From Rubrivivax sp. (lineage in GTDB: Bacteria > Pseudomonadota > Gammaproteobacteria > Burkholderiales > Burkholderiaceae_C), in assembly GCA_026125665.1 (NCBI GenBank), contig JAHCKS010000064.1:1-32018 (forward strand): DNA of 32,018 bases, written 5' to 3'. Positions 1,547 through 16,107 of this stretch are shown one piece after another. The position numbers and the translations under genes were made by a program. Position 1 is the first letter of the stretch, and every line of letters starts with the position of its first letter. Under the pieces are notes generated by a model. That model saw only the letters and a list, made by a program, of their open reading frames with translations. It was not told where the DNA came from and did no database searches.

Positions 1547-2470
1547 CTACACGCAGCGCCGGTGCCGCTCGATGCAGGTGTCCAGCACCTCGCCGCCTTC
1601 GCGCTGCCACCAGTGGCGGCGCGAGAAGATCTCCACCTCGCTGTAGCCGGCGAAACCTGCGGCCTCGACCCAGCCACGCAGGCGCGGCAGCTCGATGACG
1701 CCGTCGCCGGGCATGCCGCGGTCCTCGAGCAGGTCGGTGGTGGGCACGAGCCAGTCGCACACGTGGAAGGCGAGCAGGCGGTTCGCGCCGCGGCCGCGGC
1801 CGCTGTCGCCGTCGCTACCGCCGCCGGCGCGCGCGATCTGCGATTCGAGATCGGGGTCCCACCAGACGTGGTAGGCGTCGACGGCGACGCCGAGGGCTGC
1901 GGCCTCGCCCGCGGGGGCCGGGTCGAGCGCCTCGCACAGGTCCAGCGCCTGCGCCAGCGTGTTGACGCAGGCGCGGTCGGCCGCGTACATCGGGTGCAGC
2001 GGCTCGATGGCCAGCGGCATGCGCCGCGCACGCGCCTGCTCCAGCAGCCAGGCGATGCCTTCGCCGACCTGCGTGCGCGCGAGCGCGATGTCCTTGTGCG
2101 CCACCTTGCCGGCCAGCGCGCCGGGCAGCGCGCCGACGACGAGCACGAGGCAGGGTGCGCCGAGCGTGCACGCCTCGTCGAGCGCGCGCAGGTTGTCGTC
2201 GCGCACGGCCTGCTTCGACGCGGCGTCGGTGTAGGTGAACAGCCCGCCGCGGCAGTAGCCCGACAGCTCGAGCTCGAGCGCTTTCAGCTGCGCCGCAGTG
2301 GCTGCCAGGCCGGCGGCGGCCACCTGGTCGCGCCACGGCGAGACGGCGCGGATGCCGCGCGCCGCGCAGGCGTCGAGGATCTTCGGCAGCGGCCACGGTT
2401 CGCCGTGCTGCATGCGCACGGTGGCCGTGTTGATCGAGAGCCAGCGGTGGTCGGTGTGGAAGTCGCGCAT
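1547..2470 (-). CDS. Sugar phosphate isomerase/epimerase family protein (AP endonuclease 2 / xylose isomerase-like TIM barrel)
   Basis: A 307-residue protein starting at the ATG at 2470 (MRDFHTDHRW). The much longer open frame upstream of this is antisense-type noise over the next gene. Metal-ligand positions typical of this TIM-barrel family are visible: Glu156 in AIEPLHP, Asp198 and His201 in VDAYHVWWD, His236 in FHVCDW and Glu280 in EVEIFSRRHW. Family members isomerise, epimerise or dehydrate sugars, inositols and keto-acids using a divalent metal. It is the last gene of the four-gene minus-strand operon, 65 bp after the DUF993 gene. A low-complexity Gly/Ser/Asp loop at about residues 216-228 interrupts the barrel. 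The family is certain; the substrate is unknown. A second, divergent paralogue lies at 22533-23447 beside the tct genes. Confidence 0.85.
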   Translation of the reverse strand: MRDFHTDHRWLSINTATVRMQHGEPWPLPKILDACAARGIRAVSPWRDQVAAAGLAATAAQLKALELELSGYCRGGLFTYTDAASKQAVRDDNLRALDEACTLGAPCLVLVVGALPGALAGKVAHKDIALARTQVGEGIAWLLEQARARRMPLAIEPLHPMYAADRACVNTLAQALDLCEALDPAPAGEAAALGVAVDAYHVWWDPDLESQIARAGGGSDGDSGRGRGANRLLAFHVCDWLVPTTDLLEDRGMPGDGVIELPRLRGWVEAAGFAGYSEVEIFSRRHWWQREGGEVLDTCIERHRRCV

Positions 2471-2535
2471 GTCGGTCGTCGGCGCCGTCGGGGATGTGGC
2501 CCAGGTTCGTGGCGCGGCCGGCCGCGACGCCTTGC

Positions 2536-3720
2536 TCAGTGCACCCCGTGCAGCGCGAGCAGCGTCCTCATGCGCGCCACCGCGAGATCGGGCTGCTCGA
2601 TCAGCCCGGCGGCATCGGCCAGCCGGAACAGCTGCGCGAAGTGCGGCAGCGAGCGCGTGCTCTGCTGGCCGCCGACCATCACGAAGTGCTCCTGGTGGCC
2701 GTTGAGCCAGGCCATGAAGACGACACCGGTCTTGTAGAAGCGCGTCGGGGCACGGAAGATGTGGCGCGACAACGGCACGGTCGGTGCCAGGATGGCGTGG
2801 AAACGCGCCGTGTCGCCGGCGGCGAGCGCGGCCCGCGCCGCGCTCGCCGCCGGCGCGATGGCGTCGAAGATGCCGAGCAGCGCGTCGCTCTGGCGCCGGT
2901 TCGGATGTTCGCCGACGCCGTCGCCGGCGATCAGCTCGGCGTAGTTGAAGTCGTCGCCGGTGTACATGCGCACGTTCGGCGGCAGCCGGCGCCGCATCTC
3001 GATCTCGCGGTCCTTGTCCAGCAGCGAGATCTTGATGCCGTCCACCTTGCGGGGGTGCGCGGCGATCACCCCGAGCGCGGTGTCCATCGCGCGGCCGACG
3101 TCGGCGCTGCCCCAGTAACCAGCCAGCGCCGGGTCGAACATGTCGCCCAGCCAGTGCAGGATCACCGGCTCGCGGGCCTGCGTCAGCACGTGGTCGTAGA
3201 CACGTTCGTAGTCGGCCGGTCCCCTGGCGACGCGGGCCAGCGCGCGGCTGGCCATCACGATGAGCCGGCCGCCGAGCTTCTCGATGGCTTCCATCTGCTC
3301 GCCGTAGGCGCGGATCACGTCGTCGAGCGAGCGCGCGGCTTCCGGCGCGAGGTGATCGGTGCCGCAGCCGCTGGCGATCAGCGCGCCGGGGTGGTCGCGC
3401 GCCGCGTCGAGGCTGCGGCGGATGAGCTCGAGCGACGTCGGCCAGTCGAGCCCCATGCCGCGCTGTGCCGTGTCCATCGCCTCGGCGACGCCGAGGCCGA
3501 GTTTCCACAGCCGCTGGCGGTAGGCGATCGTGGCGTCCCAGTCCACGGCGCACTGCAGCCAAGGGTCGATGGCGGCGCGCGCGTCGGCCACCACGTGCGC
3601 GGCCGAGTAGGCGATGCGGTCGAAGCGCGTGCCCGGCGTCGCCGGGGTGAATGCACCGGGGCCGCGCAGCGTGTACGGGGCGAGCGAGCGGCCGTCGGGC
3701 GAGGGCAGGGTGATCTGCAT
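2536..3720 (-). CDS. DUF993 family protein (dihydrodipicolinate synthase-like TIM barrel)
   Basis: A 394-residue protein from the ATG at 3720 (MQITLPSP). It resembles DUF993, a family related to the class I aldolase DapA/N-acetylneuraminate lyase fold. The likely Schiff-base lysine is Lys230 in VDGIKIS. Downstream, MYTGDDFNY (residues 252-260) parallels the YTGNDD motif of the DHDPS-like protein at 10161-11225. The gene lies 20 bp after the oxidoreductase gene, so the two are almost certainly cotranscribed. By its family it may cleave or condense a keto-acid or keto-sugar made by the neighbouring dehydrogenase, but that is inference. No reaction is established for DUF993 to my knowledge. The open frame continues upstream on the same strand across the oxidoreductase gene; that extension is a shadow. 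Confidence 0.82.
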   Translation of the reverse strand: MQITLPSPDGRSLAPYTLRGPGAFTPATPGTRFDRIAYSAAHVVADARAAIDPWLQCAVDWDATIAYRQRLWKLGLGVAEAMDTAQRGMGLDWPTSLELIRRSLDAARDHPGALIASGCGTDHLAPEAARSLDDVIRAYGEQMEAIEKLGGRLIVMASRALARVARGPADYERVYDHVLTQAREPVILHWLGDMFDPALAGYWGSADVGRAMDTALGVIAAHPRKVDGIKISLLDKDREIEMRRRLPPNVRMYTGDDFNYAELIAGDGVGEHPNRRQSDALLGIFDAIAPAASAARAALAAGDTARFHAILAPTVPLSRHIFRAPTRFYKTGVVFMAWLNGHQEHFVMVGGQQSTRSLPHFAQLFRLADAAGLIEQPDLAVARMRTLLALHGVH

Positions 3721-3740
3721 GCGGCTGACCCTGCGCGGCC

Positions 3741-4916
3741 TCAGAGATCCAGGGCCGGCACGTCCACCCAGCGCCGTTCCTTCCAGCTCTGCAGCGCCGC
3801 CTCGACCAGCTGCACGCCCTTGGCGCCTTCGGCCAGCGTCCACTTGTACGGCGCGCCCTCGGCCGTATCGTCGAACACGTGGCGGATGAACGCTTCCCAC
3901 TGGAGCTTGAAGCCGTTGTCGTAGGTGTCGGTGTCGGGCACCTCCTGCCACTGCTCGAAGAAGTTCATCGCCTGTTTCACGTCGGGGTTCCACACCGGGC
4001 GCGGCGTCGTCACGCGCGCCTGCGCGCGGCAGCTCTGCAGGCCGGCCACCGCCGAGCCGTGCGTGCCGTCGACGTGGAAGGTGACGAGGTCGTCGCGGCG
4101 CACGCGCGTGGCCCACGACATGCTGAGCTGTGCGACCACCGGCTCGCCTCCATGGCCGACGAGCTGCGCCGTGGCGTAGGCGGCGTCGTCGGCCGTCGCC
4201 TGGTACCTGCGGCCGGCTTCGTCCCAGCGCTCGGGGATGTGCGTCGTGCCCAGGCACGAGATCGACTTCACCTCGCCGAACAGGTTGTCGAGCACGTAGC
4301 GCCAGTGGCACATCATGTCGAGGATCATGCCGCCGCCGTCCTCGGCACGGTAGTTCCAGCTCGGGCGCTGGATCGGCTGCAGGTCGCCCTCGAAGACCCA
4401 GTAGCCGAAGTCGATGCGCACGGCGAGCATGCGGCCGAAGAAGCCGGCGCGGCGCAGCATGTCGAGCTTGCGCAGCCCGGGCAGGAACAGCTTGTCCTGC
4501 ACGGCGCCGTGCTTGAGGCCGCTGCTTGCCGCCGCCCGCGCGATCTCGATCGCCTCGGCGAGGTTGGTGGCGACCGGCTTCTCGCAATAGACGTGCTTGC
4601 CGGCGGCAAGCGCCTGCGCCAGCAGCCGCGGCCGCATCTGCGTCGTGCCGGCGTCGAAGAAGACGGTGTCGTCCTTGTTCGCCAGCGCCGCGTCGAGGTT
4701 GGTGCCGAAGCGCGCGATGCCGTGCGCCTTCGCCAGCGCCTCGATCTTCTCGGCGTTGCGCCCGATGAGCACGGGGTCGGGCATCACGCGGTCGCCGTTG
4801 GCCAGCGCCACGCCGCCCTGGGCGCGGATGGCGACGATCGAGCGCACGAGGTGCTGGTTCATGCCCATGCGCCCGGTGACGCCGTGCATGATGAGGCCGA
4901 GTCGTTTCGTGGCCAT
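3741..4916 (-). CDS. Gfo/Idh/MocA family NAD(P)-dependent oxidoreductase
   Basis: A 391-residue protein starting at ATG 4916. The N-terminal Rossmann domain carries a glycine-rich loop (HGVTGRMG, residues 11-18). The family's EKP motif is at residues 112-114 (VYCEKPVAT), whose Lys binds cofactor and substrate. The C-terminal alpha/beta domain follows. The family oxidises hydroxyls of sugars, inositols and glycosides, or reduces the matching ketones. The N-terminus is atypical: between the first glycine loop and IGRN (51-54) there is an insertion, including RAQGGVALANGDRV, longer than usual for the family. It is the second gene of the minus operon, 35 bp after the dioxygenase gene. It probably performs the redox step of the pathway. 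The substrate cannot be read from the sequence. Confidence 0.88.
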   Translation of the reverse strand: MATKRLGLIMHGVTGRMGMNQHLVRSIVAIRAQGGVALANGDRVMPDPVLIGRNAEKIEALAKAHGIARFGTNLDAALANKDDTVFFDAGTTQMRPRLLAQALAAGKHVYCEKPVATNLAEAIEIARAAASSGLKHGAVQDKLFLPGLRKLDMLRRAGFFGRMLAVRIDFGYWVFEGDLQPIQRPSWNYRAEDGGGMILDMMCHWRYVLDNLFGEVKSISCLGTTHIPERWDEAGRRYQATADDAAYATAQLVGHGGEPVVAQLSMSWATRVRRDDLVTFHVDGTHGSAVAGLQSCRAQARVTTPRPVWNPDVKQAMNFFEQWQEVPDTDTYDNGFKLQWEAFIRHVFDDTAEGAPYKWTLAEGAKGVQLVEAALQSWKERRWVDVPALDL

Positions 4917-4951
4917 GGTGGTCTCGATGTCCTGGTCGGGGCGCGCCCTGC

Positions 4952-5740
4952 TCAGCTGACGCGCAGGCGCAGCGTCTCGTCGTAGGGCAGGGCCGGTTGC
5001 ACGAAACGCGTGCCGGCGTTGACGTAGTGCAGCGCGATGGCACGGCGCCAGTGCGCCGAGTGGTTCGGCCCCGACTGGTGGAACGTGTTGCCGTGGTGGA
5101 ACGACACGCCGCCGCGCGGCACCGGCGCCGGCGTCATCGGCTGCGCGGCCAGCACGTCGGCCGCCAGCTGCAGGTTGAAGGGTTCGTCCGCCGGCGCGAC
5201 ATGCGCGTGCACGGGCCCGCGGTTCGTGCCTTCGCCGAAGAAGAGGCAGCCGTTGTCGACCGTGGCGTCGTCCAGCGCCACCCAGGCGGTGACGAGGCCT
5301 TCGCGATCGTTCGGGCCGAAGTAGAAGTTGTCCTGGTGCGCCGGCTTCGGGCCGCCGCCCTCCGGCGGCTTGAAGAAGACCTGGCTGAAGTAGACCGACA
5401 GGCCGCCGCCGATGATCGACTCGACCCACCGCACGAGGGCGGGATGCGCGGCCAGTGCCTGCACCGAGGGCACGTGGCGGTGCGGGTTGTCGAGCTTGCG
5501 CAGCACGTCGCGGGCCTTGACGCCTCCGTCCACGTACCAGGCGCGCTGGGCCGGCGGCAGGTCGGCGAGGAAACGCTCGCCCCAGGCGTGGATGTTGGCC
5601 ACGAGCTGCGCGCACTCGGCGGGCGTCAACAGGCCGGGCACGGTGAGGTGGCCGCGGTCGCGGAACAGCGCCAGCTGCGCCGGCGACAGGGCGCCGGCCA
5701 CGGCAGGTGAAGAGGCGGATGCGGCGGAGACAGCGGGCAC
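4952..5740 (-). CDS. Phytanoyl-CoA dioxygenase family protein (Fe(II)/2-oxoglutarate oxygenase)
   Basis: A 262-residue protein with a GTG start at 5740, first gene of the minus operon. The 2-His-1-carboxylate iron site is clear: His135 and Asp137 in AHQDNFYFG, and the distal His221 in FHQSGPNHS. An Arg in the following WRRAIALHY segment (232-233) is placed to bind 2-oxoglutarate. PhyH-family bacterial enzymes hydroxylate small molecules, and some demethylate or open them. The start is supported by the promoter: a TTGACG/TACATT pair at 5793-5765 predicts transcription starting about 18 nt upstream of this GTG. No strong Shine-Dalgarno is visible, and the leader would be very short. An 18-bp operator-like palindrome covers the start region. 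Likely role: an oxygenation step of the locus. The substrate is unknown. Confidence 0.86.
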   Translation of the reverse strand: MPAVSAASASSPAVAGALSPAQLALFRDRGHLTVPGLLTPAECAQLVANIHAWGERFLADLPPAQRAWYVDGGVKARDVLRKLDNPHRHVPSVQALAAHPALVRWVESIIGGGLSVYFSQVFFKPPEGGGPKPAHQDNFYFGPNDREGLVTAWVALDDATVDNGCLFFGEGTNRGPVHAHVAPADEPFNLQLAADVLAAQPMTPAPVPRGGVSFHHGNTFHQSGPNHSAHWRRAIALHYVNAGTRFVQPALPYDETLRLRVS

Positions 5741-5745
5741 GGCGG

Positions 5746-5763
5746 ATTACCCGAATGGTGAAT
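5746..5763 (-). promoter_or_regulatory. Operator site 1 of the ATTCACC-N4-GGTGAAT palindrome
   Basis: On the plus strand the site reads ATTACCC-GAAT-GGTGAAT. The right half matches the consensus perfectly and the left half is degenerate. It lies directly downstream of the -10 of the dioxygenase promoter and covers the predicted start of transcription, which suits a repressor. Confidence 0.55.
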
Positions 5764-5764
5764 T

Positions 5765-5793
5765 AATGTAGGCGCGCCGCACCGGGTCGTCAA
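5765..5793 (-). promoter_or_regulatory. Sigma-70-type promoter of the dioxygenase operon
   Basis: On the minus strand, TTGACG (5793-5788) and TACATT (5770-5765) are separated by exactly 17 bp. Transcription would begin near 5758, inside operator site 1 and about 18 nt before the GTG start at 5740. Confidence 0.6.
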
Positions 5794-5875: not shown

Positions 5876-5879
5876 GCCG

Positions 5880-5897
5880 CATCACCAGGCGGTGAAT
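5880..5897 (+). promoter_or_regulatory. Operator site 2 of the ATTCACC-N4-GGTGAAT palindrome
   Basis: The site reads CATCACC-AGGC-GGTGAAT. The inner TCACC-N4-GGTGA is perfectly symmetric. It covers the predicted transcription start of the MetE-like operon, 4 bp downstream of the -10 hexamer. Confidence 0.6.
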
Positions 5898-5959: not shown

Positions 5960-6982
5960 ATGCCAGCAGCCTCCCGCATCCAGACCACCGTCGTCGGCTC
6001 CTACCCCGTGCCCGACTGGCTCGTCGCCGCGCCGTCCGAGCAGGCGCTGGCCGATGCCACGCGCGTCGTCATCGGCATCCAGGAACAGGCGGGCATCGAC
6101 GTCGTCTGCGACGGCGAGCTGTACCGCTTCGACATCAACCACCCCGAGACGAACGGGATGATCGAGTACTTCGTGCGGCCGATGGACGGCATCACGCAGC
6201 GCTTCTCGTTCGATGACCTCATCGCCTGGCGCGGCAAGAGCGGCATGAAGTTCCGCACCCGGCCGCCGGGCACGGTGGTGGGCCCCGTCGGCCACGGCAG
6301 CCTGGACCTGCCGCTCGCCTGCGCGCGCGCCAAGGCGCTGGCGCGGCACCGCTTCAAGTTCACCGTCACCGGGCCGCACATGCTGGCCAAGACGCTGATC
6401 GACAAGCACTACGGCAACCTGCCCGACCTCGCGAATGCCATCGCCGACGCGCTGGCGGCGCAGGTGAAGCATCTCGATGCCGACGTCGTGCAGCTCGACG
6501 AGGCGAACCTGCCCGGCCACGCCGACGAGTGGCCCTGGGCCGCCGCGGCCATCAACCGCGTGCTCGACGCGGTGAAGGGCGCCGGCGCCGTGCCGGCCGT
6601 GCACCTGTGCTTCGGCAACTACGGCGGGCAGACGATCCAGAAGGGCACCTGGGGCCAGCTCGTCGACTACCTCAATGCGCTGCACGCCGACCACGTGGTG
6701 CTGGAGTGCGCGCACCGGCCGCCCCAGGAGCTGGAGGTGCTGCGTGGCCTGAGGCCGGAGATCGGCCTGGGGCTGGGCGTGGTGGACATCAAGGCCACCG
6801 ACGTCGAGAGCGCCGACGCGGTGGCGCGCGCCATCGAGCGCGCCGAGAAGCTGCTCGGCGCCGGGCGCGTGCGCTACATCCACCCCGACTGCGGCTTCTG
6901 GATGCTCAAGCGCGGCATCGCCGACGCGAAGATGCGCGCGCTGAAGGCCGGGCGCGACCTGTTCGAGGGGATCGGGCGATGA
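5960..6982 (+). CDS. Stand-alone MetE-like (cobalamin-independent methionine synthase C-terminal type) zinc methyltransferase
   Basis: A 340-residue protein from ATG 5960; a TTG at 5939 would add seven unlikely residues. All four zinc ligands of the MetE catalytic domain are present: His215 and Cys217 in HLCFGN, Glu249 in LECAHR and Cys311 in HPDCGFW. The N-terminal TTVVGSYP motif is also typical. The folate-binding N-terminal half of true MetE (about 750 residues in total) is absent, so this is the short, core-only form. Such proteins activate a thiol on zinc and move methyl or related groups, and many have no assigned substrate. It is the first gene of a plus-strand operon and overlaps the next gene by ATGA. 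Given its catabolic neighbours, a demethylation or C-S/C-O transfer step is possible, but this is inference. Confidence 0.85.
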   Translation: MPAASRIQTTVVGSYPVPDWLVAAPSEQALADATRVVIGIQEQAGIDVVCDGELYRFDINHPETNGMIEYFVRPMDGITQRFSFDDLIAWRGKSGMKFRTRPPGTVVGPVGHGSLDLPLACARAKALARHRFKFTVTGPHMLAKTLIDKHYGNLPDLANAIADALAAQVKHLDADVVQLDEANLPGHADEWPWAAAAINRVLDAVKGAGAVPAVHLCFGNYGGQTIQKGTWGQLVDYLNALHADHVVLECAHRPPQELEVLRGLRPEIGLGLGVVDIKATDVESADAVARAIERAEKLLGAGRVRYIHPDCGFWMLKRGIADAKMRALKAGRDLFEGIGR

Positions 6983-8019
6983 AGCCGCTGCCGGCGCGCT
7001 TCGAGGACGTGGCCCAGCTCGAGGAGGTGATGACCGAGCCGAGCCCGGCGCTCGTCGCCGACCTCGCGTCGATCGACGGCGACATCCTCGTGCTCGGCGT
7101 CGGCGGCAAGATGGGGCCGACGCTGGCGCGCATGGCAAGGCGTGCCGCGCCGGGCAAGCGCGTGTTCGGCGTGGCGCGCTTCAGCGACAAGGCGGTGAAG
7201 CGCTCGCTCGAGCCGCACGGCATCGAGTGCATCGAGTGCAACCTGCTCGACCGCGCCGCCATCGCACGGCTGCCCAACGTCGGCGCCGGCGTCAGGAACC
7301 TCGTCTTCATGGCCGGGCACAAGTTCGGCGCATCCGACGACGTGTCGTTCACGTGGATGATGAACGCCGGCGTGCCGCAGATGGTGGCCGACGTCTTCCG
7401 CGGCACGCGCACGGTGGTGTTCTCCACCGCCTGCGTGTACCCGTTCGTGCCCGTGGACGGCCCCGGCGCGAGCGAGGCGACACCGGCGACGCCGCCGCCC
7501 GGCGACTACGCCAACTCGTGCGTCGGCCGCGAGCGCATGTTCGAGTACGGCTCGCGGCGCTTCGGTACGCCGGGGCGGCTGGTGCGCCTGTCGTACGCCA
7601 TCGACATGCGCTACGGCGTGCTGCACGACGTGGCGAGCGCCGTGTTCGAAGGGCGCCCGCTCGACCTGACGATGGGCCATGCCGACGTGATCTGGCAGGG
7701 CGACGCGAACGAACAGGCGCTGCGGCTGCTCGCGCACTGCACGAGCCCGACGACGCCGATCAACGTCACCGGGCCGGCTCACACCTCGGTGCGCTGGCTC
7801 GCCGGCGAGTTCGGCAAGCGCTTCGGCCGCACACCCGTGCTGGCCGGCACCGAGGCGAAGACCGCCTGGCTGCTCGATACCACCGAGGCGCAACGCCTCT
7901 TCGGGCCACCGAGGGTCGGCATCGAGACGATGATCGACTGGATGGCCGACTGGGTGCAGCGCGGCGGCCCGAGTCTCGGCAAGCCAACGCACTTCTCGAC
8001 GCGTGACGGCAAGTACTGA
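6979..8019 (+). CDS. NAD-dependent epimerase/dehydratase-like protein (extended SDR fold)
   Basis: A 346-residue protein whose ATG at 6979 overlaps the previous stop (ATGA), indicating translational coupling. The N-terminal nucleotide-binding loop is GVGGKMG (residues 40-46), preceded by a beta strand DILVL. A FSTACVYPF segment (148-156) matches the S-x-x-x-VY region of extended SDRs. The usual catalytic YxxxK appears as Y177-A-N-S-C181, so the canonical Lys is missing, and the nearest basic residues are Arg184 and Arg186. It may still bind NAD(P) but use altered chemistry, or act as a reductase or dehydratase of a different type. Its placement between the MetE-like and GNAT genes suggests a role in the same pathway. 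The fold is sure; the reaction is not. Confidence 0.8.
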   Translation: MKPLPARFEDVAQLEEVMTEPSPALVADLASIDGDILVLGVGGKMGPTLARMARRAAPGKRVFGVARFSDKAVKRSLEPHGIECIECNLLDRAAIARLPNVGAGVRNLVFMAGHKFGASDDVSFTWMMNAGVPQMVADVFRGTRTVVFSTACVYPFVPVDGPGASEATPATPPPGDYANSCVGRERMFEYGSRRFGTPGRLVRLSYAIDMRYGVLHDVASAVFEGRPLDLTMGHADVIWQGDANEQALRLLAHCTSPTTPINVTGPAHTSVRWLAGEFGKRFGRTPVLAGTEAKTAWLLDTTEAQRLFGPPRVGIETMIDWMADWVQRGGPSLGKPTHFSTRDGKY

Positions 8020-8962
8020 CCGCTGGGCGGGTGCCGCCCGGCCGCAGCGGGTGGCGCTCACCGACGCCTCGCCGGCGGAGCTCCTGGCGCTTTCGGACGC
8101 CGCGCACTGGAACCAGACCGAGGAGGATTGGCGCGCGATGCTGGCCATCTCGCAGGGCCTGGCCTGGGGCGTGCGCGTGCGCGATGCGGCCACCGGCGGC
8201 ACCGTGCTGGCCGCCTCGACGCTCGTGCTGCCCTACCAGCCGGGTGAGGCGAACCAGCCGCCGTTCGCCTGGATCAGCATGGTGCTGGTGCTGCCGCCCT
8301 GGCGCGGCCACGGCTTCGCGGGCGCGCTGCTGCGCCGCGCCCTCGACGAGCTCGCGGCGCGGCGGCTCAGGCCGGTGCTCGATGCCACGCCGGCGGGCCG
8401 CCCGGTCTACCTGAGGCAGGGGTTCGTCGATGGCTGGGGGTTCACGCGGTGGCGAAGAAAGGCCGTGGCCGGCGCGGTGGTGGCAGCGCCGCCGGTGCGC
8501 GGGCCGATGGCCGGCATCCGGCCGCGTCGTGCGGCCGACTGGCCGGCCATCGAGGCGCTCGACCGGCCGGCCTTCGGTGCCAACCGGGTGCCGCTGCTGC
8601 GGTTGATGTCTCGGCGCCTGCCGCAGGCCGCCTGGGTGGCCGAGAAGGACGGGGCGCTGCGCGGCTACCTGCTCGGCCGCGATGGCCGCACCGCCTTGCA
8701 GCTGGGCCCGCTGGTCGCCGACGACGACCGCACGGCGCTGGCCCTGCTGCAGGCGGGGCTGCCCGCGGTGGGGGCGACGGCCGCCGCTTCGGGGCGCGAC
8801 GTGATCGTCGACCTGCGCGACGCCTGCCGCGGCATCGCCGCCTGGCTGCAGGGCACGGGTTTCGTCGCCGAGCGGCCCTTCACGCGCATGGTGCACGGCC
8901 GCGGCGGACCGCCGGGCGACGCGGCGCGGCAGGTGCTGATGGCGGGCCCAGAGCTGGGGTAG
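8003..8962 (+). CDS. Tandem GNAT-domain N-acetyltransferase
   Basis: A 319-residue protein with a GTG start at 8003, overlapping the preceding gene by 17 nt. The first GNAT domain (about residues 20-145) shows the acetyl-CoA pyrophosphate-binding pattern PPWRGHGFAGALLRRAL, followed by the Y-L-R-Q-G-F element. The second domain (about 165-300), starting at GIRPRRAADWPAIEALD, is weaker in the CoA loop and may be a degenerate partner domain that supplies substrate binding. It is the third gene of the plus-strand operon. GNAT enzymes acetylate amines, antibiotics or peptides; no substrate can be deduced here. The start is uncertain, as there is no in-frame ATG near the domain start. Confidence 0.75.
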   Translation: MTASTDRWAGAARPQRVALTDASPAELLALSDAAHWNQTEEDWRAMLAISQGLAWGVRVRDAATGGTVLAASTLVLPYQPGEANQPPFAWISMVLVLPPWRGHGFAGALLRRALDELAARRLRPVLDATPAGRPVYLRQGFVDGWGFTRWRRKAVAGAVVAAPPVRGPMAGIRPRRAADWPAIEALDRPAFGANRVPLLRLMSRRLPQAAWVAEKDGALRGYLLGRDGRTALQLGPLVADDDRTALALLQAGLPAVGATAAASGRDVIVDLRDACRGIAAWLQGTGFVAERPFTRMVHGRGGPPGDAARQVLMAGPELG

Positions 8963-8982: not shown

Positions 8983-9990
8983 CTACTTCGTCATGCGGAT
9001 CGAGCGGTCGAGGAACTCGTTGGTGTAGGTGGTGCGCACGTCGAACGGCTTGTCGATGCCGATGTACTCGCGCACCAGCTCGTAGTCGGCCTTCATGCGC
9101 GCGTCGTCGTGGATGCCGAGCGCCACCTCGCGCGAGAACTTGTCGCTCATCAGCTGCTCGACGAGCGCCCAGTTCTGCATCTCGTTGTCGAACTTGAGCG
9201 CGCCGTTGGCGTCCACCAGCGCCTGCACGCAGGGCCTGGCGTCCTTCACGCAGGCCGCGAAGGCCCGCTGCGTGACCTTGACGAACTTGTCGACGAGGCC
9301 CTTGTTCGCCTCCAGGAACTTGGCGTTGACGATGACCGAGTTGCCGTACGGGTTCAGGCCGGCGTCGCGCCAGGCGAGGAAGCCCATGTCGTCGCCGAGC
9401 TCGCGCTGGAAGATGTGGTGGATGTTGAAGAACGACGTCGTGACGTCGATCGACTTGGCCTTCAGCGCCGCCAGCTTGGCGTTGGCGTCGATGTTGACCC
9501 ACGTGACGGCCTTCGGGTCGACGCCGTTGGCCTTGGCGAGCGCCGGCCACATGACGCGCGCGCCGTCGGCGGCGGGGTTGCCGATCTTCTTGCCGACGAA
9601 GTCCTTCACGCCCTTGATGCCCGAGCTCTTCAGCCAGTACATGCCCTGTGGCGAGTTGGCGTAGACGTTGAACACCGCCACCGTGTCGGCACCCTTGCCC
9701 TTGGCGACGAGCACGCCGCCCATGTCCGCCAGGCCGATCGGCGTGGCGCCGGCGCCCACGCGCTGCGTGGCCAGCGCCGAGCCCTTGCCGGGCTCCAGCT
9801 GCAGGTCGATGCCTTCCTTGGCGTACCAGCCCTGCGCCTTGGCGTAGTAGTACGGCGCGTGGTCGCCGCCGGGCACCCAGTTGAGGATGAAGTCGACCTT
9901 GGTCTGCGCCTGCGCGGGCAGCATCGCCGAAGCAGCGGCCAGCACGAACGAAGCCAGCGCGGCACCGGGGGTGAGCGGCTTGAACATCAT
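8983..9990 (-). CDS. ABC transporter substrate-binding protein, NMT1/THI5-like (copy 1)
   Basis: A 335-residue protein. The ATG at 9990 (followed by a second ATG at 9987) is preceded by AGGAG at good spacing; the longer upstream frame has no such support. The N-terminus is a Sec signal peptide of about 28 residues ending near AQAQ. The mature protein begins with the family motif LNWVPGGDHAPYYYA, then GWYAKEGID, the ligand-binding start seen in ThiY-like proteins. These periplasmic proteins bind small aromatic, pyrimidine or sulfonate-like ligands. It is paralogous to the protein at 15100-16107 and identical in length. It is transcribed divergently from the aldolase/ABC operon, and an operator-like palindrome sits between them. 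It probably feeds the permeases encoded on the plus strand. Confidence 0.88.
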   Translation of the reverse strand: MMFKPLTPGAALASFVLAAASAMLPAQAQTKVDFILNWVPGGDHAPYYYAKAQGWYAKEGIDLQLEPGKGSALATQRVGAGATPIGLADMGGVLVAKGKGADTVAVFNVYANSPQGMYWLKSSGIKGVKDFVGKKIGNPAADGARVMWPALAKANGVDPKAVTWVNIDANAKLAALKAKSIDVTTSFFNIHHIFQRELGDDMGFLAWRDAGLNPYGNSVIVNAKFLEANKGLVDKFVKVTQRAFAACVKDARPCVQALVDANGALKFDNEMQNWALVEQLMSDKFSREVALGIHDDARMKADYELVREYIGIDKPFDVRTTYTNEFLDRSIRMTK

Positions 9991-10005
9991 GGGGTGCTCC
10001 TGTAA

Positions 10006-10023
10006 ATTCACCAGATGGTGATT
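10006..10023. promoter_or_regulatory. Operator site 3 of the ATTCACC-N4-GGTGAAT palindrome
   Basis: ATTCACC-AGAT-GGTGATT is the best site, with one mismatch from the perfect palindrome. It lies between divergent genes. Next to it, AGTATAAG (10033-10040) offers TATAAG as a plus-strand -10 and TATACT as a minus-strand -10. No clear -35 is seen for either, and the site would cover the plus-strand -35 region and the minus-strand start. Confidence 0.65.
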
Positions 10024-10160: not shown

Positions 10161-11225
10161 ATGCACTGGTCCGAGCTGAACGCCGACGTCCTCGCGCTGC
10201 TGCGCCGCGGCACGGTGATTCCTGCGCACCCGCTGGCGCTCGACGCCGCGCGGCGCTTCGACGCGCGCCGCCAGCGTGCGCTGACCCGCTACTACCTCGA
10301 CGCCGGCGCCGGTGGCCTGGCCGTGGGAGTGCACAGCACGCAGTTCGCGATCCGCGAACGGGGCCTGTACCAGCCGGTGCTGCGCGCCGCGGCCGAGACG
10401 GCGCGCGCGTGGTGCGCCCCGAACCGGCCGCTCGTGATGATCGCCGGCACCGCCGGCCGCACGGCGCAGGCCGTGGCCGAGGCGCAGGTGGCGCGCGCGG
10501 AGGGCTATCACGCGGCGATGCTGTCGCTGGCGGCGATGAAGGGCGCCTCGATCGACGAGCTCGTCGCGCACTGCCGGGCCGTCGCCGACGTGATGCCGCT
10601 CGTCGGCTTCTACCTGCAGCCGGCGGTGGGCGGCATCGCGCTGCCCGCGGAGTTCTGGCGCCGCTTCGCCGAGATCGACAACGTCGTGGCGATCAAGATC
10701 GCGCCGTTCGACCGCTACAAGACGCTCGACGTCGTGCGCGGCGTCGCCGCGGCGCGCGCCGAGCAGCGCGTGACGCTGTACACCGGCAACGACGACCACA
10801 TCGTGCTCGACCTGCTGCAGCCGTTCGTGGTGAAGCGCGGCGAAGAAGCGGTCACCGTGCGCATCCGCGGCGGCCTGCTCGGCCACTGGAGCGTGTGGAC
10901 GCAGTCGGCCGTGGCACTCTTCGAACGGGTGCGCGCCGCGGCGGCCGCCGGCGCCGTCGATGCCGAACTGCTTGCGCTCGACTCGCGCGTCACCGACTGC
11001 AACAGCGCCTTCTTCGACGTGGCCAACGCCTTCGCCGGCTGCATCCCCGGCTGCCACGAGGTGCTGCGGCGCCAGGGGCTGCTCGAGGGCATCTGGTGCC
11101 TCGACCCGGCCGAGACGCTGTCGCCCGGGCAGGCCGAGGAGATCACGCGCGTGTGCCGCGAGCACGCCGACCTCGCCGACGACACCTTCGTCGCCGCGAA
11201 CCTCGAACGCTGGCTGGCCGACTGA
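10161..11225 (+). CDS. Dihydrodipicolinate synthase / N-acetylneuraminate lyase family aldolase
   Basis: A 354-residue protein from ATG 10161 ([10 protein letters not shown]); a GTG at 10023 lies in the operator/promoter region and is rejected. It has the class I aldolase TIM barrel of the DapA/NanA family. The Schiff-base lysine is Lys179 in VVAIKIAP, the likely catalytic Tyr is Tyr151 in GFYLQP, and the YTGNDD motif follows. At 354 residues it is longer than DapA (about 290) because of a C-terminal extension. Family members make or break C-C bonds next to a pyruvate-type carbonyl. The gene heads a six-gene operon whose members overlap or nearly touch: it ends in a TGATG overlap with permease 1. 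It is probably a catabolic lyase, not lysine-biosynthetic DapA. It shares the IKI and YTGxDD signatures with the DUF993 protein. Confidence 0.87.
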
Positions 11226-12016
11226 TGGACAGCGCCAAGGAGGGCGGCAAGTCGGGCGTCGAGTCGCGCCTGGCGCAGTACTCGCTGGGCGTGGCGGCGC
11301 ACCTGCTGCTGCTGCTCGCCTGGTACCTCTTCGTGCGCCTGGGCGACGTGCCCAAGTTCGTCATGCCGTCGCCGGCGGCGACCTTCGGCGCACTGCTCGT
11401 GCAGGACTACGGCTGGTGGAGCAACACGCTCGTCACCGCCACCGAGATCTTCGGCGGCTACGCGCTGGCGCTCGGCGTGGGCGTGCTGCTGGCGCTGCTG
11501 TTCACGTGGTCGAAGCTGCTCGAGGCGCTGGTGCTGCCGCTGCTCGTGACGCTGAACATGATCCCGAAGGTGGCGCTCGGGCCGCTCATCATCGTCTGGT
11601 TCAAGTACGGCGTGTTCCCGAACACGCTGATGGCGTTCTCGATCGCGGTCTTTCCCATCCTGCTGACCACGGCGCGCGGCCTGCGCGAGATCGAGCCGGA
11701 CCTGCTCGACCTCGTGCGCTCGCTGCGCGGCTCGCGCTGGCAGCTCTTCACGAAGATCCAGCTGCCCGGTGCGCTGCCCTACGTCTTCTCGGGCATGAAG
11801 GTGGCGGCGATCCTCGCCGTCGCCGGGGCCATCGTCGGCGAGTTCCTCGGCTCCGACCGCGGCCTCGGCTACCTGATGCTGCAGGTGCAGGTGACGCTCG
11901 ACACGCCGGCCATGTTCATGGCCGTCATCCTCATCACGCTGATCGGCGTGGTGCTCTACGGCCTGGTGCTGGCGCTGGAGCGCTGGCTGGTGCCCAAGGA
12001 CGCACGCGTCGCATGA
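11225..12016 (+). CDS. ABC transporter permease (copy 1), SsuC/TauC type
   Basis: A 263-residue inner-membrane protein. The ATG at 11225 overlaps the aldolase stop as TGATG. About six hydrophobic segments are visible, with the FVMPSP sequence after the first, typical of this permease class. The cytoplasmic EAA loop is seen around [17 protein letters not shown] and contacts the ATPase. It belongs to the nitrate/sulfonate/taurine/pyrimidine-precursor permease family that pairs with NMT1 binding proteins. Its stop overlaps the ATPase start by ATGA. The paralogous permease at 14233-15036 may form a heterodimer with it. Confidence 0.9.
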
Positions 12017-12792
12017 CGACCCCTGTGAACACCGAACCGTTCATCCACCTCGCCGGCGTGCGCAAGACCTACCGGCGCGGGCGCCAGGAGCACCTGGCGA
12101 TCTCGGACGCGACCTTCGACGTGATGCCCGGCGAGCTGGTGTCGCTGGTCGGCCCTTCGGGCTGCGGCAAGAGCACGCTGCTGAAGGTGCTGGCCGGCCT
12201 GCACCCGCACGACGCCGGCGAGGTGCGCATCGGCTCGCCGACGCACCCGTTTGCGCCCGAACGCGACATCGGCATGGTCTTCCAGGCGCCGCTGCTGCTG
12301 AAGTGGCGGCGCATCCTCGAGAACATCCTGCTGCCGGCCGAGTTGCTGGGCCTGCCGATGCGCGAGGCGCGCGAGCGCGGGCGCGAGCTGATGGCGATGG
12401 TCGGGCTGGCCGGCAACGAGCAGAAGTACCCCTACGAACTTTCGGGCGGCATGCAGCAGCGCGCCGCCATCGCGCGCGCGCTGATCCACGACCCGAAGCT
12501 CGTGCTGATGGACGAGCCGTTCGGCGCGCTCGATGCGCTGACGCGCGAGAAGATGAACCTCGAGCTGCTGCGCATCTGGAAGGAGAGCGGCAAGACGATC
12601 GTCTTCGTCACGCACGGCATCAGCGAGGCGGTGTTCCTCGGCTCGCGCGTCGTCGTGCTCACCGCCGGCCCGGCGCGCATGGCCGACAACTTCGCCATCG
12701 AGCTGCCGCACCCGCGCACGCTGGACATGAAGACGCACGAGACCTTCGGCGTCTACACGCGGCGAATCTACAAGCTGCTCGGCATGGAGTGA
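12013..12792 (+). CDS. ABC transporter ATP-binding protein, SsuB/TauB type
   Basis: A 259-residue ATPase. Walker A is GPSGCGKST (residues 47-55), the Q-loop is VFQAP, the signature is LSGGMQQR (143-150) and Walker B is LVLMDEPF (163-170), followed by the D-loop and the His of VTHGISEA. All motifs are intact. It starts in an ATGA overlap with permease 1 and is followed 4 bp later by the enolase-superfamily gene. It is the only ATPase in the locus, so it presumably energises both permeases. This is the importer class for sulfonates, nitrate and thiamine precursors; sequence alone does not fix the ligand. Confidence 0.93.
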
Positions 12793-12796
12793 GCCG

Positions 12797-14236
12797 ATGC
12801 CCGCGACGGCGCCGAGGTTCGAGATCGAGTTCATCCGGTTCTTCGAGCGCGACGTGCGGCTGCGCATGCCGTTCCGCTTCGGCGTCGTCACGCTCACCGA
12901 GGCGCCCCAGGCCTTCGTGCACGTCGGCGTGCGGTTGCCCGGCGGGGGCGTGGGGGAGGGCATGTCGGCCGAGCTGCTGGCGCCGAAGTGGTTCGACAAG
13001 AACCCGGCCCTCAGCAACGAGGACAACTTCGACCAGCTGCGCCGGGCGCTGGCGCTGGCCCGCGGGCTGTACCTCGACGGCACCGCGCGCAGCGCCTTCG
13101 GGCACTTCGCCGCCCACCACCGCGCGCAGGTCGAGCGGGGCGCCGCCGGCGGCCTGAACCCGCTCGTTGCGAGCTACGGGCCGGCGCTGGTCGACAAGGC
13201 CGTGCTCGACGCGCTCGGCCGCGTGCTCGGCCGGCCGTTCCACGAGCTCGTGGCCGGCAATCTCGTCGGCGTGGCGGCGCCGGAGGTGGAACCGCTCTGC
13301 CCCGACCTCGCCGGCTTCGACCTCGATGCTTTCCTGGCGACGCTGACGCCGGCCCGCAGCCTGGCGGCGCGGCACACCGTGGGGCTCGTCGACCCGATCG
13401 TCGCCGCCGACCAGCCGGCGGGGTCGCGGGTGGGCGACGGCCTGCCCGAGACGCTGGAGGAGGTGGTCGCCACCTACGGCCAGCGCTGGTTCAAGCTGAA
13501 GGTGGGCGGCGATGTCGAGGCCGACGTGGCGCGGCTCGTGCGCATCGCCGGCGTGCTCGGGCGCATCTCGGGCGAGTGGCATTGCACGCTCGACGGCAAC
13601 GAGCAGTACGACAGCGTCGAGGGGGTGCTGCGCCTGTGGCGGCGCATCGCGGCCGAGCCGCGCCTGGCGGCGCTGCGCGAGCGCGTGGTCTTCATCGAGC
13701 AGCCGGTCAAGCGCCAGGCGGCGCTGGCCGAGGACGTGCATGCGCTCGCGGCGCTGAAGCCGGTGATCATCGACGAGAGCGACGACTCGCTCGACGCGTT
13801 CGTGCGGGCGCGCGCACGCGGCTACGGCGGCGTGTCCTCGAAGACCTGCAAGGGCCTGTACAAGTCGCTGCTCAACCGCGCCCGCTGCGAGACGTGGAAC
13901 GCGCAAGCGCCCGGCCGCTACCTGATGAGCGGCGAGGACCTGACGATCCAGCCGGGCCTCGCGCTGCAGCAGGACCTGGCGCTCGTCGGCCTGCTCGGCA
14001 TCACGCACGTCGAGCGCAACGGCCACCACTACGTGAACGGCATGGCCGACCTGCCCGCCAGCGAGCAGCAGGCCTTCCTCGCCGCCCACCCCGACCTCTA
14101 CGAACACAGCCACGGCGCCGTGCGGCTGCGCATCACCGACGGGCAGATCGAGATGGCCTCGCTGGCCGCGCCGCCCGGCTTCGCCAGCGGCGCCTGGCCC
14201 GAGCCAGGCACGCTGCGGCCGATGGCCACGCCATGA
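12797..14236 (+). CDS. Enolase-superfamily (mandelate racemase/muconate lactonizing-like) protein
   Basis: A 479-residue protein from ATG 12797. Enolase-superfamily active-site positions are visible: a KxK general-base pair (Lys233, Lys235) in WFKLKVGG, metal ligands Asp266 in TLDGNEQY, Glu301 in FIEQPVK and Asp326/Glu327 in IIDESDDS, and Lys349 in VSSKTCKG. At 479 residues it is clearly longer than the usual 350-400; the extra length falls mostly in the N-terminal domain and at the C-terminus. Superfamily members abstract a proton alpha to a carboxylate and then eliminate water or ammonia, racemise or cycloisomerise. It sits inside an ABC operon between the ATPase and permease 2, which strongly suggests that it acts on the imported ligand, so a carboxylate is plausible. 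Its stop overlaps permease 2 by ATGA. Confidence 0.82.
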   Translation: MPATAPRFEIEFIRFFERDVRLRMPFRFGVVTLTEAPQAFVHVGVRLPGGGVGEGMSAELLAPKWFDKNPALSNEDNFDQLRRALALARGLYLDGTARSAFGHFAAHHRAQVERGAAGGLNPLVASYGPALVDKAVLDALGRVLGRPFHELVAGNLVGVAAPEVEPLCPDLAGFDLDAFLATLTPARSLAARHTVGLVDPIVAADQPAGSRVGDGLPETLEEVVATYGQRWFKLKVGGDVEADVARLVRIAGVLGRISGEWHCTLDGNEQYDSVEGVLRLWRRIAAEPRLAALRERVVFIEQPVKRQAALAEDVHALAALKPVIIDESDDSLDAFVRARARGYGGVSSKTCKGLYKSLLNRARCETWNAQAPGRYLMSGEDLTIQPGLALQQDLALVGLLGITHVERNGHHYVNGMADLPASEQQAFLAAHPDLYEHSHGAVRLRITDGQIEMASLAAPPGFASGAWPEPGTLRPMATP

Positions 14237-15036
14237 ACACGCCCGTGCGCGAGTCGGCGGTGCAGCGCTGGGTGGCCGGCATCGGCTACTACGTGCCGAG
14301 CGTGCTGGTGATGATCGGCCTGCTCGTGCTGTGGCAGCTGGCGGTGGTGATGCTCGGCATCAAGGAGTTCATCCTGCCCTCGCCGTGGGCGGCGATGAAG
14401 GCGCTGGCCAACCCGAACTACCAGTGGATGGCCAACCTGCTGACGACGCTGTACGCGGTGCTCGGCGCGTTCGCCCTCTCGGCGGTGCTCGGCGTGCTGC
14501 TGGCCGTGGTCATCGTCTGGAACGACCTGCTGCTGCGCACCGTGATGCCGGTGCTGGTGCTGTTCAACACGCTGCCGAAGATCGCGCTGGCGCCGCTCTT
14601 CGTCGTCTGGCTGGGCTACGGCGTGTGGCCGAACATCCTCATCGGCACGACCATCGCCTTCTTCCCGATGGTCGTGAACACCGCGGTGGGGCTGGCCAAC
14701 GCCGAGCCGGAGATGCTCGACCTCGTGCGCACGCTCAAGGCCAGCCGCTGGCAGGTGCTGCGCAAGATCCGCTTCCCGAACGCGTTGCCGTACATCTTCG
14801 TCGGGCTGAAGCTGAACGCGACGATGAGCGTCATCGGCGCCATCGTCGGCGAGTTCGTGGCCTCCGAGCGCGGCCTCGGATCGCTCATCGTGACCAGCGG
14901 CGTGACGATGGAGACGGCGCCGATCTTCGCCTCGCTGGCGCTGATCTCGGCGCTCGGCCTGGCGCTGTACGGCGTGGTCGTGCTCGCCGAACGCATCGTC
15001 GCGCCGTGGGCCCACCCCGACGACCGCACCGATTGA
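14233..15036 (+). CDS. ABC transporter permease (copy 2), SsuC/TauC type
   Basis: A 267-residue inner-membrane protein whose ATG at 14233 overlaps the previous stop (ATGA). About six membrane segments are visible, with FILPSP after the first and an EAA loop near EPEMLDLVRTLKASRWQ. It is clearly paralogous to permease 1 along its whole length. No second ATPase follows; the next gene is a binding protein. A heterodimeric permease sharing one ATPase is the simplest reading, and two alternative homodimers are also possible. Confidence 0.9.
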   Translation: MNTPVRESAVQRWVAGIGYYVPSVLVMIGLLVLWQLAVVMLGIKEFILPSPWAAMKALANPNYQWMANLLTTLYAVLGAFALSAVLGVLLAVVIVWNDLLLRTVMPVLVLFNTLPKIALAPLFVVWLGYGVWPNILIGTTIAFFPMVVNTAVGLANAEPEMLDLVRTLKASRWQVLRKIRFPNALPYIFVGLKLNATMSVIGAIVGEFVASERGLGSLIVTSGVTMETAPIFASLALISALGLALYGVVVLAERIVAPWAHPDDRTD

Positions 15037-15099
15037 CCTGTGGAGCGAAGATCAAGAAAACGACGAGGCCCCGATTCACGACGTCTGAAGGAGACACAA

Positions 15100-16107
15100 G
15101 TGCAACGTTCGATCCTCCCCGGCCTGCGCCTCGCCGCGCGGGCACTCGCCACGCTGGCCGCCTGCGCCGGCGCCGCCACCGCCTGGGCGCAGGACAAGGT
15201 GCAGCTGCAGCTGAACTGGTTCCATCTCGCCGACCACTCGCCGATCTACCTGGCCCTGAAGAAGGGCTACTACAAGGAAGAGGGCATCGACCTCACGGTG
15301 CTGCGCGGCAGCGGCAGTGCCGACAGCGCGAAGAAGATCGAGCTCGGCCAGGCCGACATCGGCATCTCCGACGCACCCACCGTGCTCACGGCCATCGGCA
15401 AGGGCGCCAACCTGAAGATGGTGGCCGTGGTCTACGACAAGGCCGGCAACAACGTCTTCTTCCGCAAGGGCGCCAACATCCGCAGCCCGAAGGACCTCGT
15501 GGGCAAGAAGATCGCCGTGCCGCCGGCCGATTCGCACCGCGTGCTGTGGCCGGCCTTCGCCGCGCTGCACGGCATCGCGCCCGACGCGGTGACGCTGGTC
15601 AACGTCAAGCCCGAGGGCAAGCAGGCCATCGTCGCGGCGGGCGAGGTGGACGCGTCCTTCGACCTCTACACGAGCTACGCCATCTGGGAGAAGGTGCTGG
15701 GCAAGGGCGATGTCGGCCACCTGCTGTGGGCCGACTTCGGCCTGCCGATCTACGGCCACACCTACTTCGTCAACAACGACCTCATCCGCAAGAACCCGAA
15801 GCTGATCGAGCGCTTCCTGCGCGCCACGCACAAGGGCTGGCGCGACGCCAAGGCCAGCCCCGCGGCGTCGATCGACGCGATGGTCGAGGTCGTGCCCGGC
15901 CTGGACCGCAACACGCTGCTGGCGACGATGCCGCAGATCCTGGACCTGTGCGTCACCGAACGCTCGGCCAAGCACGGCCTGGGCTGGATCGAGCCCGAGC
16001 TGATGCAGAAGACGATGGACATCGCCTTCGCGACCAACAAGCCGGAGAAGCCGTTTGCGGTGGCCGATGCGTTCACCAACCAGTTCAGCAGCAAGATCAA
16101 GCCCTGA
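15100..16107 (+). CDS. ABC transporter substrate-binding protein, NMT1/THI5-like (copy 2)
   Basis: A 335-residue protein from the GTG at 15100, preceded by AAGGAG at about 7 nt. The open frame upstream of this (from 15040) lacks signal-peptide character. The signal peptide is about 31 residues, ending at AWAQ. The mature sequence opens with LQLNWFHLADHSPIYLA and GYYKEEGID, the same pattern as copy 1, and the two share the GVKDFVGKKI/SPKDLVGKKI region and the H-R-V-L/A-R-V-M-WPA stretch. It is the last gene of the plus-strand operon, 63 bp after permease 2. It is probably periplasmic and may offer a second ligand specificity to the same membrane complex. Confidence 0.9.
   Translation: MQRSILPGLRLAARALATLAACAGAATAWAQDKVQLQLNWFHLADHSPIYLALKKGYYKEEGIDLTVLRGSGSADSAKKIELGQADIGISDAPTVLTAIGKGANLKMVAVVYDKAGNNVFFRKGANIRSPKDLVGKKIAVPPADSHRVLWPAFAALHGIAPDAVTLVNVKPEGKQAIVAAGEVDASFDLYTSYAIWEKVLGKGDVGHLLWADFGLPIYGHTYFVNNDLIRKNPKLIERFLRATHKGWRDAKASPAASIDAMVEVVPGLDRNTLLATMPQILDLCVTERSAKHGLGWIEPELMQKTMDIAFATNKPEKPFAVADAFTNQFSSKIKP

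Follow-up and report, generated by a model that had tools for sequence, protein, structure and literature searches.

In Sinorhizobium meliloti, the cluster SMc04130-SMc04140 includes a protein whose solved structure (3ju2) carries no functional assignment; a second solved structure, 4dnh, is presumably also a product of this cluster. Hexuronates are oxidatively degraded by the Udh-Gci-KdgD route, and the myo-inositol (iol) and levoglucosan (lgd) pathways employ Gfo/Idh/MocA and AP_endonuc_2 enzymes, with no known enolase-superfamily protein or DUF993. A DapA-like aldolase, GudL, is reported to be used for glucarate and galactarate breakdown in Enterocloster (PMC11775122), and arylmalonate decarboxylase (AMDase) loci, many of them from Variovorax, feature mandelate racemase/muconate lactonizing-type genes together with tripartite tricarboxylate transporter (TTT), TRAP or ABC genes (PMC4996985). 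The window analyzed here is the whole contig JAHCKS010000064.1 (C229; 32018 bases) of a Rubrivivax genome (6.28 Mb in 268 contigs, 88.6% complete). It carries a catabolic locus which is read, with moderate confidence, as one putative TetR-controlled regulon, where two gene cassettes, placed around an enolase-superfamily hub enzyme, would import and split a carboxylated polyhydroxy compound. Gene set, co-occurrence, conserved residues and a shared palindrome are the directly supported part; from these we infer the substrate, the reaction order and the binding of TetR.

Cassette A is composed of an extended short-chain dehydrogenase/reductase (SDR), a lyase of the dihydrodipicolinate synthase (DHDPS) type, an NMT1-type ABC importer and the enolase-superfamily protein, indicated below as enolase; cassette B of a Gfo/Idh/MocA dehydrogenase (Gfo), DUF993, two isomerases (iso and iso2), a TctABC importer and TetR. 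Genes were called by GC frame analysis and codon scoring, start codons being picked among candidates. The initial annotation, made from the sequence alone, had limited the locus to 1547-16107 and had described thirteen genes in three tight operons. The interval holds 14 genes which, by orientation and spacing, form three multi-gene units and one single gene, and a Pfam scan of all 14 proteins confirms the families originally named. The boundaries were too narrow: five more genes, at 22533-27447, belong to the same system. Their families (iso2, TctA, TctB, TctC, TetR) are among the most frequent neighbours of the enolase, when the genes called in 118 loci and in the window (119 sources) are clustered; these counts include near-duplicate loci (such as L005/L082, L006/L100 and L004/L036), as well as L001 and L002, which are pieces of the window itself. 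Further neighbour counts refer to 42 loci flanked by 8 kb or more on each side, taken from the best 80 of 193 loci; this best-80 set leans to close relatives, because it was retrieved with the window's enolase. The genes are as follows.

1547-2470, minus strand: iso, AP_endonuc_2 / xylose-isomerase-like TIM barrel (Pfam), cassette B
2536-3720, minus strand: DUF993 (Pfam, 611 bits), cassette B
3741-4916, minus strand: Gfo/Idh/MocA NAD(P) dehydrogenase (Pfam), cassette B
4952-5740, minus strand: PhyH-type Fe/2-oxoglutarate dioxygenase (Pfam), optional member
5960-6982, plus strand: stand-alone MetE C-terminal-type zinc enzyme (Pfam Meth_synt_2), optional member
6979-8019, plus strand: extended SDR (Pfam Epimerase), YxxxC instead of YxxxK, cassette A
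8003-8962, plus strand: tandem GNAT acetyltransferase (Pfam Acetyltransf_1 and Acetyltransf_18), optional member
8983-9990, minus strand: NMT1-type periplasmic binding protein (Pfam NMT1), cassette A
10161-11225, plus strand: DHDPS-family lyase (Pfam), cassette A
11225-12016, plus strand: ABC permease (Pfam BPD_transp_1)
12013-12792, plus strand: ABC ATPase (Pfam ABC_tran)
12797-14236, plus strand: enolase-superfamily protein, 479 aa (Pfam MR_MLE_C), hub enzyme
14233-15036, plus strand: second ABC permease (Pfam BPD_transp_1)
15100-16107, plus strand: second NMT1-type binding protein (Pfam NMT1)
22533-23381, minus strand: iso2, second TIM-barrel isomerase, D-tagatose/D-psicose 3-epimerase-like, cassette B
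23444-24952, minus strand: TctA permease (Pfam), family in 30 of 42 loci
24956-25444, minus strand: TctB small permease (Pfam), family in 30 of 42 loci
25530-26528, minus strand: TctC/Bug binding protein (Pfam), family in 33 of 42 loci
26782-27447, minus strand: TetR regulator (Pfam TetR_N and TetR_C_29), proposed repressor of both cassettes

TctA, TctB and TctC all score above their Pfam cut-offs, completing a TTT set. Two halves made of the same genes, in the same order, are separated by one gene in the close relative L036 and by five in L092, which is cut before TetR. A third relative, L034, matches the window in layout but lacks the genes for the alpha/beta hydrolase, the subtilase and the AAA ATPase, located here at 16.2-20.9 kb. 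Three of the enzymes listed at first, although present, are peripheral rather than core members: the MetE-like gene occurs in 11 of the 42 loci, GNAT in 9, and PhyH in 6 of the 119 sources, with a TauD-type gene near DUF993 in 5 others. The locus first noticed is real and its interpretation is partly supported: the outline was correct, but the locus was drawn too small, and these optional genes were counted as core. In four rhizobial loci (L044, L045, L052, L057), two MetE-like genes lie near two distinct enolase-superfamily genes, hinting at a role of the MetE-like enzyme in some versions of the pathway.

Co-occurrence was surveyed in 200 genomes from the family to which the window belongs, or 199 once its own genome is set aside; only strong matches were counted, genomes with weak matches alone (23 of 41 for DHDPS, 3 of 22 for SDR) being scored as absent. 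The enolase is present in 30 of the 200 genomes, own included. All 17 genomes with the DHDPS-type gene also have the SDR, found in 18 of the 199 overall (Fisher p 1e-23), and 25 of the 29 genomes containing an enolase of any type also contain DUF993, itself present in 46 of the 199 (p 2.5e-15); relatedness among the genomes makes both p values guides only. SDR and DHDPS gene starts are at most 3.1 kb apart in 16 of the 17. A closer type of enolase, defined by at least 53% identity (a threshold fixed after a gap between 49 and 53 was seen), is found in 18 genomes, 16 of which have DHDPS; reciprocally, 16 of the 17 DHDPS genomes have it. By genome coordinates, most enolases lie a few kb from DHDPS, DUF993 or both. 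Of the 42 loci, 19 contain both cassettes, 9 only A, 7 only B and 7 neither. Co-occurrence across genomes, which the initial annotation had proposed as a check, is therefore observed in many other genomes and exceeds chance.

Each cassette is also found as a compact operon. A minimal A operon is organized as TetR-SDR-(GNAT)-DHDPS-permease-NMT1-ATPase-enolase (L135-L137, with two more genes in L137), a minimal B operon as TetR-TctC-Gfo-DUF993-iso (L143-L146 and L150; in L149 TetR comes last), and a full B operon as TetR-(PhyH)-TctC-TctB-TctA-iso2-(enolase)-Gfo-DUF993-iso (L141, L142). In Beta- and Alphaproteobacteria the enolase repeatedly accompanies Gfo/DUF993 or SDR/DHDPS, and a Rokubacteria locus pairs it with DUF993. 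The SDR-DHDPS pair reaches Actinobacteria, Firmicutes and Planctomycetes, and is found on plasmids of Tistrella, Sulfitobacter, Nitratireductor, Rhodococcus, Glaciihabitans, Streptomyces, Aquisphaera, Paenibacillus and Mesobacillus; the SDR is also present in two haloarchaea. An enolase tree, built by a quick method from 113 rows (109 distinct), does not split A from B types: there are 34 label changes, against 58.5 in shuffles (none of 200 as low), a figure inflated by the dependence of labels on the visible locus, since fewer neighbours are visible in short loci. Labels also differ within two sets of identical rows, one of them comprising the window and its own piece L002. The scatter of labels would fit a conserved enolase around which cassettes are gained and lost.

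Comparison of the intergenic gaps of the window revealed a common inverted repeat. The pattern, ATTNACC-N4-GGTNAAT, was drawn from two window sites and later refined to ATTMACC-N4-GGTKAAT. The window sites are:

5746-5763: operator-like palindrome, 1 mismatch, in the gap between the PhyH and MetE-like genes
5880-5897: operator-like palindrome, 2 mismatches, in the same gap
10006-10023: operator-like palindrome ATTCACCAGATGGTGATT, 1 mismatch, between the NMT1 and DHDPS genes
26664-26681: operator-like palindrome, 1 mismatch, upstream of tctC

These four sites, with at most 2 mismatches, compare with 0.07 expected, and none of 100 shuffles reaches four. Across the window's own genome, three sites have no more than 1 mismatch, and all three fall in the window; with up to 2 mismatches the window holds 4 of 22. 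A set of 106 loci contains 47 non-coding sites that score at least 13/14, and 46 of these precede a cassette gene by no more than 300 nt; like those for the window, these counts are not independent of the discovery, because the pattern was fixed on window sites and then refined. The palindromes lie ahead of tctC (23), SDR (8), TetR (7), MetE-like (3), DHDPS (3), NMT1 (3), Gfo (2), enolase (1) and PhyH (1). The 46 sites correspond to 39 different 18-mers from 35 loci, related loci sharing sites by descent; in the same loci, none of 60 permuted half-sites was found upstream of cassette genes. Whole genomes were scanned, at a maximum of 1 mismatch, for 12 selected genomes with cassettes and 6 without: in the former, 18 of 45 sites have a cassette gene no more than 10 kb away, against an expectation of about 0.4. 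In G198, cassettes A and B are 2.5 Mb apart, and all four sites of the genome are at the two cassettes. The TetR genes beside both cassette types form one cluster, and the product of 26782-27447 would bind the palindrome. The palindrome resembles the RutR site, TTGACCA-N2-TGGTCAA, on which the literature search returned nothing.

Several observations weigh against a single regulon acting on a single compound. SDR and DHDPS are on separate contigs in G082; cassette A occurs without DUF993 in 3 of the 17 family genomes, including the single-contig G147, and 21 of the 46 DUF993 genomes have no enolase, indicating that A and B are not strictly dependent on each other. Of the 45 sites in the 12 cassette genomes, 27 lie elsewhere, the six cassette-free genomes hold 21 sites, and G147 and G199 have none near their cassettes at a maximum of 1 mismatch. 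Importers also vary among relatives: besides TctA, NMT1 genes are present in 14 of the 42 loci and TRAP genes in 10 (some perhaps belonging to neighbour genes), and the S. meliloti, Streptomyces and Glaciihabitans loci have sugar-type ABC genes, so that the substrate may vary as well. Nothing in the gene set or in the comparisons pins it down.

With a probability somewhat short of even, A and B may instead be parallel pathways for two related substrates, such as epimers or oxidation states, sharing the regulator and sometimes the enolase, rather than consecutive steps. Each cassette has its own Rossmann oxidoreductase, lysine lyase-fold enzyme and importer, and the loci with only A or only B fit this arrangement, as do five genomes (G071, G082, G105, G132, G177) with two enolases, one by SDR/DHDPS and one by DUF993. 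The palindrome common to both cassettes speaks for a single process, and so does the frequency of DUF993, present in 14 of the 17 genomes with cassette A as compared to 46 of 199 overall.

The single-regulon reading is accompanied by conserved catalytic residues wherever these were tested, as first noticed in the window proteins. The row counts given for these residues include duplicates and exclude rows shorter than 75% of the window protein. A separate set of alignments used 113 of 116 rows for the enolase, 58 of 66 for Gfo, 44 of 45 for DUF993, 69 of 72 for iso2 and 18 of 19 for the MetE-like protein; SDR rows L032 and L090 and DHDPS row L109 were left out. Of ten proteins compared with NCBIfam (those of 1547-16107 apart from the two permeases, the ATPase and the second NMT1 protein), none attains a curated cut-off, so that their names stop at the superfamily. 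No kinase is among the families found in the window locus.

The muconate lactonizing enzyme (MLE) subgroup of the enolase superfamily is marked by a KxK motif, three acidic metal ligands and a sixth-strand lysine. The enolase belongs to it: K233, K235, D266, E301, D326 and K349 are present in 124 of 124 rows, and MR_MLE_C scores 33.6 (cut-off 29.4). For muconate/chloromuconate cycloisomerase (TIGR02534) it scores 25.2 bits, against a cut-off of 335. Its model is of high quality (predicted local distance difference test, pLDDT, 92.8), and structure search gave template modelling (TM) scores, by query length, of up to 0.58; many superfamily members match about equally, so that the reaction was not narrowed. 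In the named collection, its closest relatives are from Rubrivivax and Burkholderiales metagenome-assembled genomes.

DUF993 has K230 and GDD in 57 of 57 rows, and its one clear solved relative, 4dnh, is titled 'Uncharacterized protein': it is probably a DHDPS-like lyase, with Lys230 as Schiff-base lysine. In a distant group of loci (L153, L154, L117, L156), DUF993 and an isomerase gene are found alongside a CoA-transferase, a 3-ketoacyl reductase and a glycerate kinase, three of the four adding acyl-CoA dehydrogenase and enoyl-CoA hydratase; DUF993 may there serve another pathway. On a Streptomyces plasmid (L160), DUF993 immediately precedes a type I polyketide synthase gene.

The cassette A enzymes depart from known patterns. 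In the DHDPS-type protein, K179 aligns with the Schiff-base lysine of the DHDPS/NAL superfamily in 45 of 45 rows, placing the protein in that superfamily; GTTGE is replaced, VHSTQ aligning to the G(S/T)TGE stretch, so that the keto partner may be other than pyruvate. In the SDR, Y177-A-N-S-C181 aligns where TerB has YxxxK: the tyrosine is found in 50 of 50 rows, and the lysine position is occupied by C in 48 and by V in 2, confirming the lysine-less SDR of the initial annotation. The protein lacks the YxxxK of classical and extended SDRs and has the extended SDR fold (AF2 model, pLDDT 88.4; TM 0.72 to TerB), TerB and NDP-sugar epimerases being the nearest.

A remodelled oxidative hexuronate or aldarate route seems unlikely. 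It would assign the SDR as uronate dehydrogenase, the enolase as lactone cycloisomerase/dehydratase and the DHDPS-type protein as a KdgD/GudL-like enzyme, with a tricarboxylate-type importer: the superfamilies match those of Udh-Gci-KdgD, in matching combination. The use of a DapA-like aldolase for glucarate and galactarate in Enterocloster, described in PMC11775122, points the same way. Such a route is at odds with the missing SDR lysine, with the altered GTTGE motif, and with KdgD and DapA scores (17.7 of 374 and 18.9 of 206 bits) far below the cut-offs, and it leaves Gfo, DUF993 and two isomerases unexplained.

An inositol-like cyclitol or cyclitol acid, oxidized by Gfo, isomerized by an IolI-like barrel and opened by DUF993, appears still more doubtful as the substrate. 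Gfo has K113-P114, D200 and H204 in 73 of 73 rows; iolG is its best NCBIfam name, at 55.1 bits with a cut-off of 355, and levoglucosan dehydrogenase scores 42.3 bits, with a cut-off of 650. The iso protein belongs to the SMc04130/3ju2 family (3ju2, E 6.5e-138), and among its PDB matches the closest with a known function is IolI (1i60, E 2.3e-16); metal ligands are intact (E156, D198, H236, E278 and E280 in 45 of 45 rows). They are also intact in iso2 (E154, D187, H214 and E251 in 77 of 77 rows), whose family is in 38 of the 42 loci; this protein matches 7x7w (E 2.9e-26) and, among enzymes of known function, is nearest to D-tagatose/D-psicose 3-epimerases. The CoA-transferase, enoyl-CoA hydratase and glycerate kinase of the distant DUF993 loci would suit a cyclitol as well. 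The missed iolG cut-off and the predominance of organic-anion importers argue against it, as does the fact that the families identified at the window locus include no iolB/C/D-type gene.

A methylated substrate, such as 4-O-methylglucuronate, stripped of its methyl group by the dioxygenase or the MetE-like enzyme, is very unlikely. PhyH or TauD dioxygenase and MetE-like genes do recur; the PhyH protein matches EvdO2 (4xab, E 3.1e-21), and the MetE-like protein, at 138.2 bits for PRK04326 (cut-off 406), retains E181, H215, C217, E249 and C311 in 20 of 20 rows, the last four at the zinc-ligand positions of MetE. Yet just 11 of 42 loci have the MetE-like gene, and in the same 200 genomes the 4 with GH115 and the 3 with GH67 are all outside the 30 with the enolase, although free acid could come from other microbes. 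Self-released 4-O-methylglucuronate was rejected for this lack of overlap. Of the substrate first proposed, the carboxylated and polyhydroxylated character is plausible, judging from the importers (TctABC, TRAP, NMT1), the enolase and the isomerases; methylation gained no support from the GH115/GH67 comparison. A pyrimidine, thiamine-precursor or sulfonate system, suggested by the NMT1/SsuA family names and by the likeness of the palindrome to the RutR site, is highly improbable and was rejected, since SsuA reaches 61 of 163.5 bits, missing its cut-off, no Rfam match such as a TPP riboswitch is found in the window, and relatives have unrelated importers.

Under the favoured reading of one regulon around the enolase, an organic anion would be imported via TctABC and/or the NMT1-type ABC importer, as their families suggest. 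In cassette B, Gfo would use NAD(P) to oxidize a hydroxyl group; the TIM-barrel isomerases, with the help of their metal, would shift the carbonyl or invert an adjacent centre; and DUF993, by its conserved residues, may form a Schiff base via Lys230 and split a C-C bond. The lysine pair of the enolase would remove the proton alpha to the carboxylate, elimination or epimerization following. In cassette A, the DHDPS-type lyase, with its Schiff-base lysine kept and its pyruvate motif altered, may perform a second cleavage, next to the lysine-less SDR, its constant partner. TetR would be released from ATTMACC-N4-GGTKAAT by the substrate or an intermediate.

The locus may thus be described as a putative sugar-acid-type catabolic regulon, with at least two enzymes of provisional type. 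A bolder proposal, offered tentatively, is that of an undescribed, widespread pathway for an environmental organic acid, where DUF993 would be a new lysine-dependent C-C lyase and the Tyr/Cys SDR a new SDR catalyst. The presence of the enolase in 30 of 200 family genomes, and of the SDR-DHDPS pair across several phyla, suggests that the compound is probably common in the environment. The shared palindrome ties DUF993, the lysine-less SDR and the 3ju2/4dnh families to one process, and offers a direct route to the inducer.

Other features are found in the window. The subtilase and AAA ATPase genes (17312-20872, minus strand) match IetS (E 1.1e-32) and IetA (E 9.9e-74) in PADLOC, indicating that a defence system sits between the two halves of the locus; GC content at 18-22 kb, which covers this IetAS-like stretch, is 0.66-0.67, compared to 0.69-0.76 in the rest of the window. 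At 27595-32018 (plus strand), a gene for a TIR-domain protein is followed by one for an nSTAND1 NTPase, cut by the contig end (Pfam): in PADLOC the first gives a weak ThsB-like match, the second none, and they are a possible defence pair. Long imperfect hairpins are located at 1326-1498 and 21531-21691 (arms of 61 and 55 nt, 84% complementary, 51-nt spacer); they share sequence by eye, lie one near each end of the cassette A stretch, and are possibly copies of a small repeat element. ARAGORN reports a 91-nt tRNA-Gly(gcc) at 31861-31951 (plus strand), within the nSTAND1 reading frame, probably a false call, because the window has no Rfam match at gathering score.

Searches of an open-licence library, where most matching papers were judged from listings, showed no described pathway with this gene set and no match for DUF993; with a gene set which recurs in many genomes, this agrees with the unfamiliar catabolic locus initially proposed. 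Each of the compared systems is without several parts of the window, and their defining features, where tested, are not found in the window. The Udh-Gci-KdgD route likewise combines SDR, enolase-superfamily and DHDPS-superfamily enzymes, but in the window the SDR is without lysine, the enolase is of the MLE type, the DHDPS motif is altered, and Gfo, DUF993 and two isomerases are added. The iol and lgd pathways share Gfo/Idh/MocA and AP_endonuc_2 enzymes with the window, whose Gfo remains below the cut-offs for IolG and levoglucosan dehydrogenase. In the gud/gar pathway with GudL, a dehydratase feeds a DapA-family aldolase; importers are different, and Gfo, DUF993, SDR and isomerases are not found in the available part of that report (PMC11775122). 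AMDase loci show the same pattern of enolase-superfamily gene plus importer, but are centred on AMDase, and the accessible text has no match for DUF993, SDR or DHDPS, 'dihydrodipicolinate' occurring 0 times (PMC4996985). For the S. meliloti cluster, no description was found in the open-licence literature, where its locus tags match only table rows of PMC12542648. A copy of it (CP090106, L158), probably corresponding to SMc04130-SMc04140 of strain 1021, differs from the window by a sugar-type ABC importer, with neither an SDR/DHDPS pair nor a TTT seen within 19 kb. By gene content it is nonetheless the nearest system: a single operon there unites TetR with Gfo, DUF993, the enolase and an isomerase, all of which are represented in the window.

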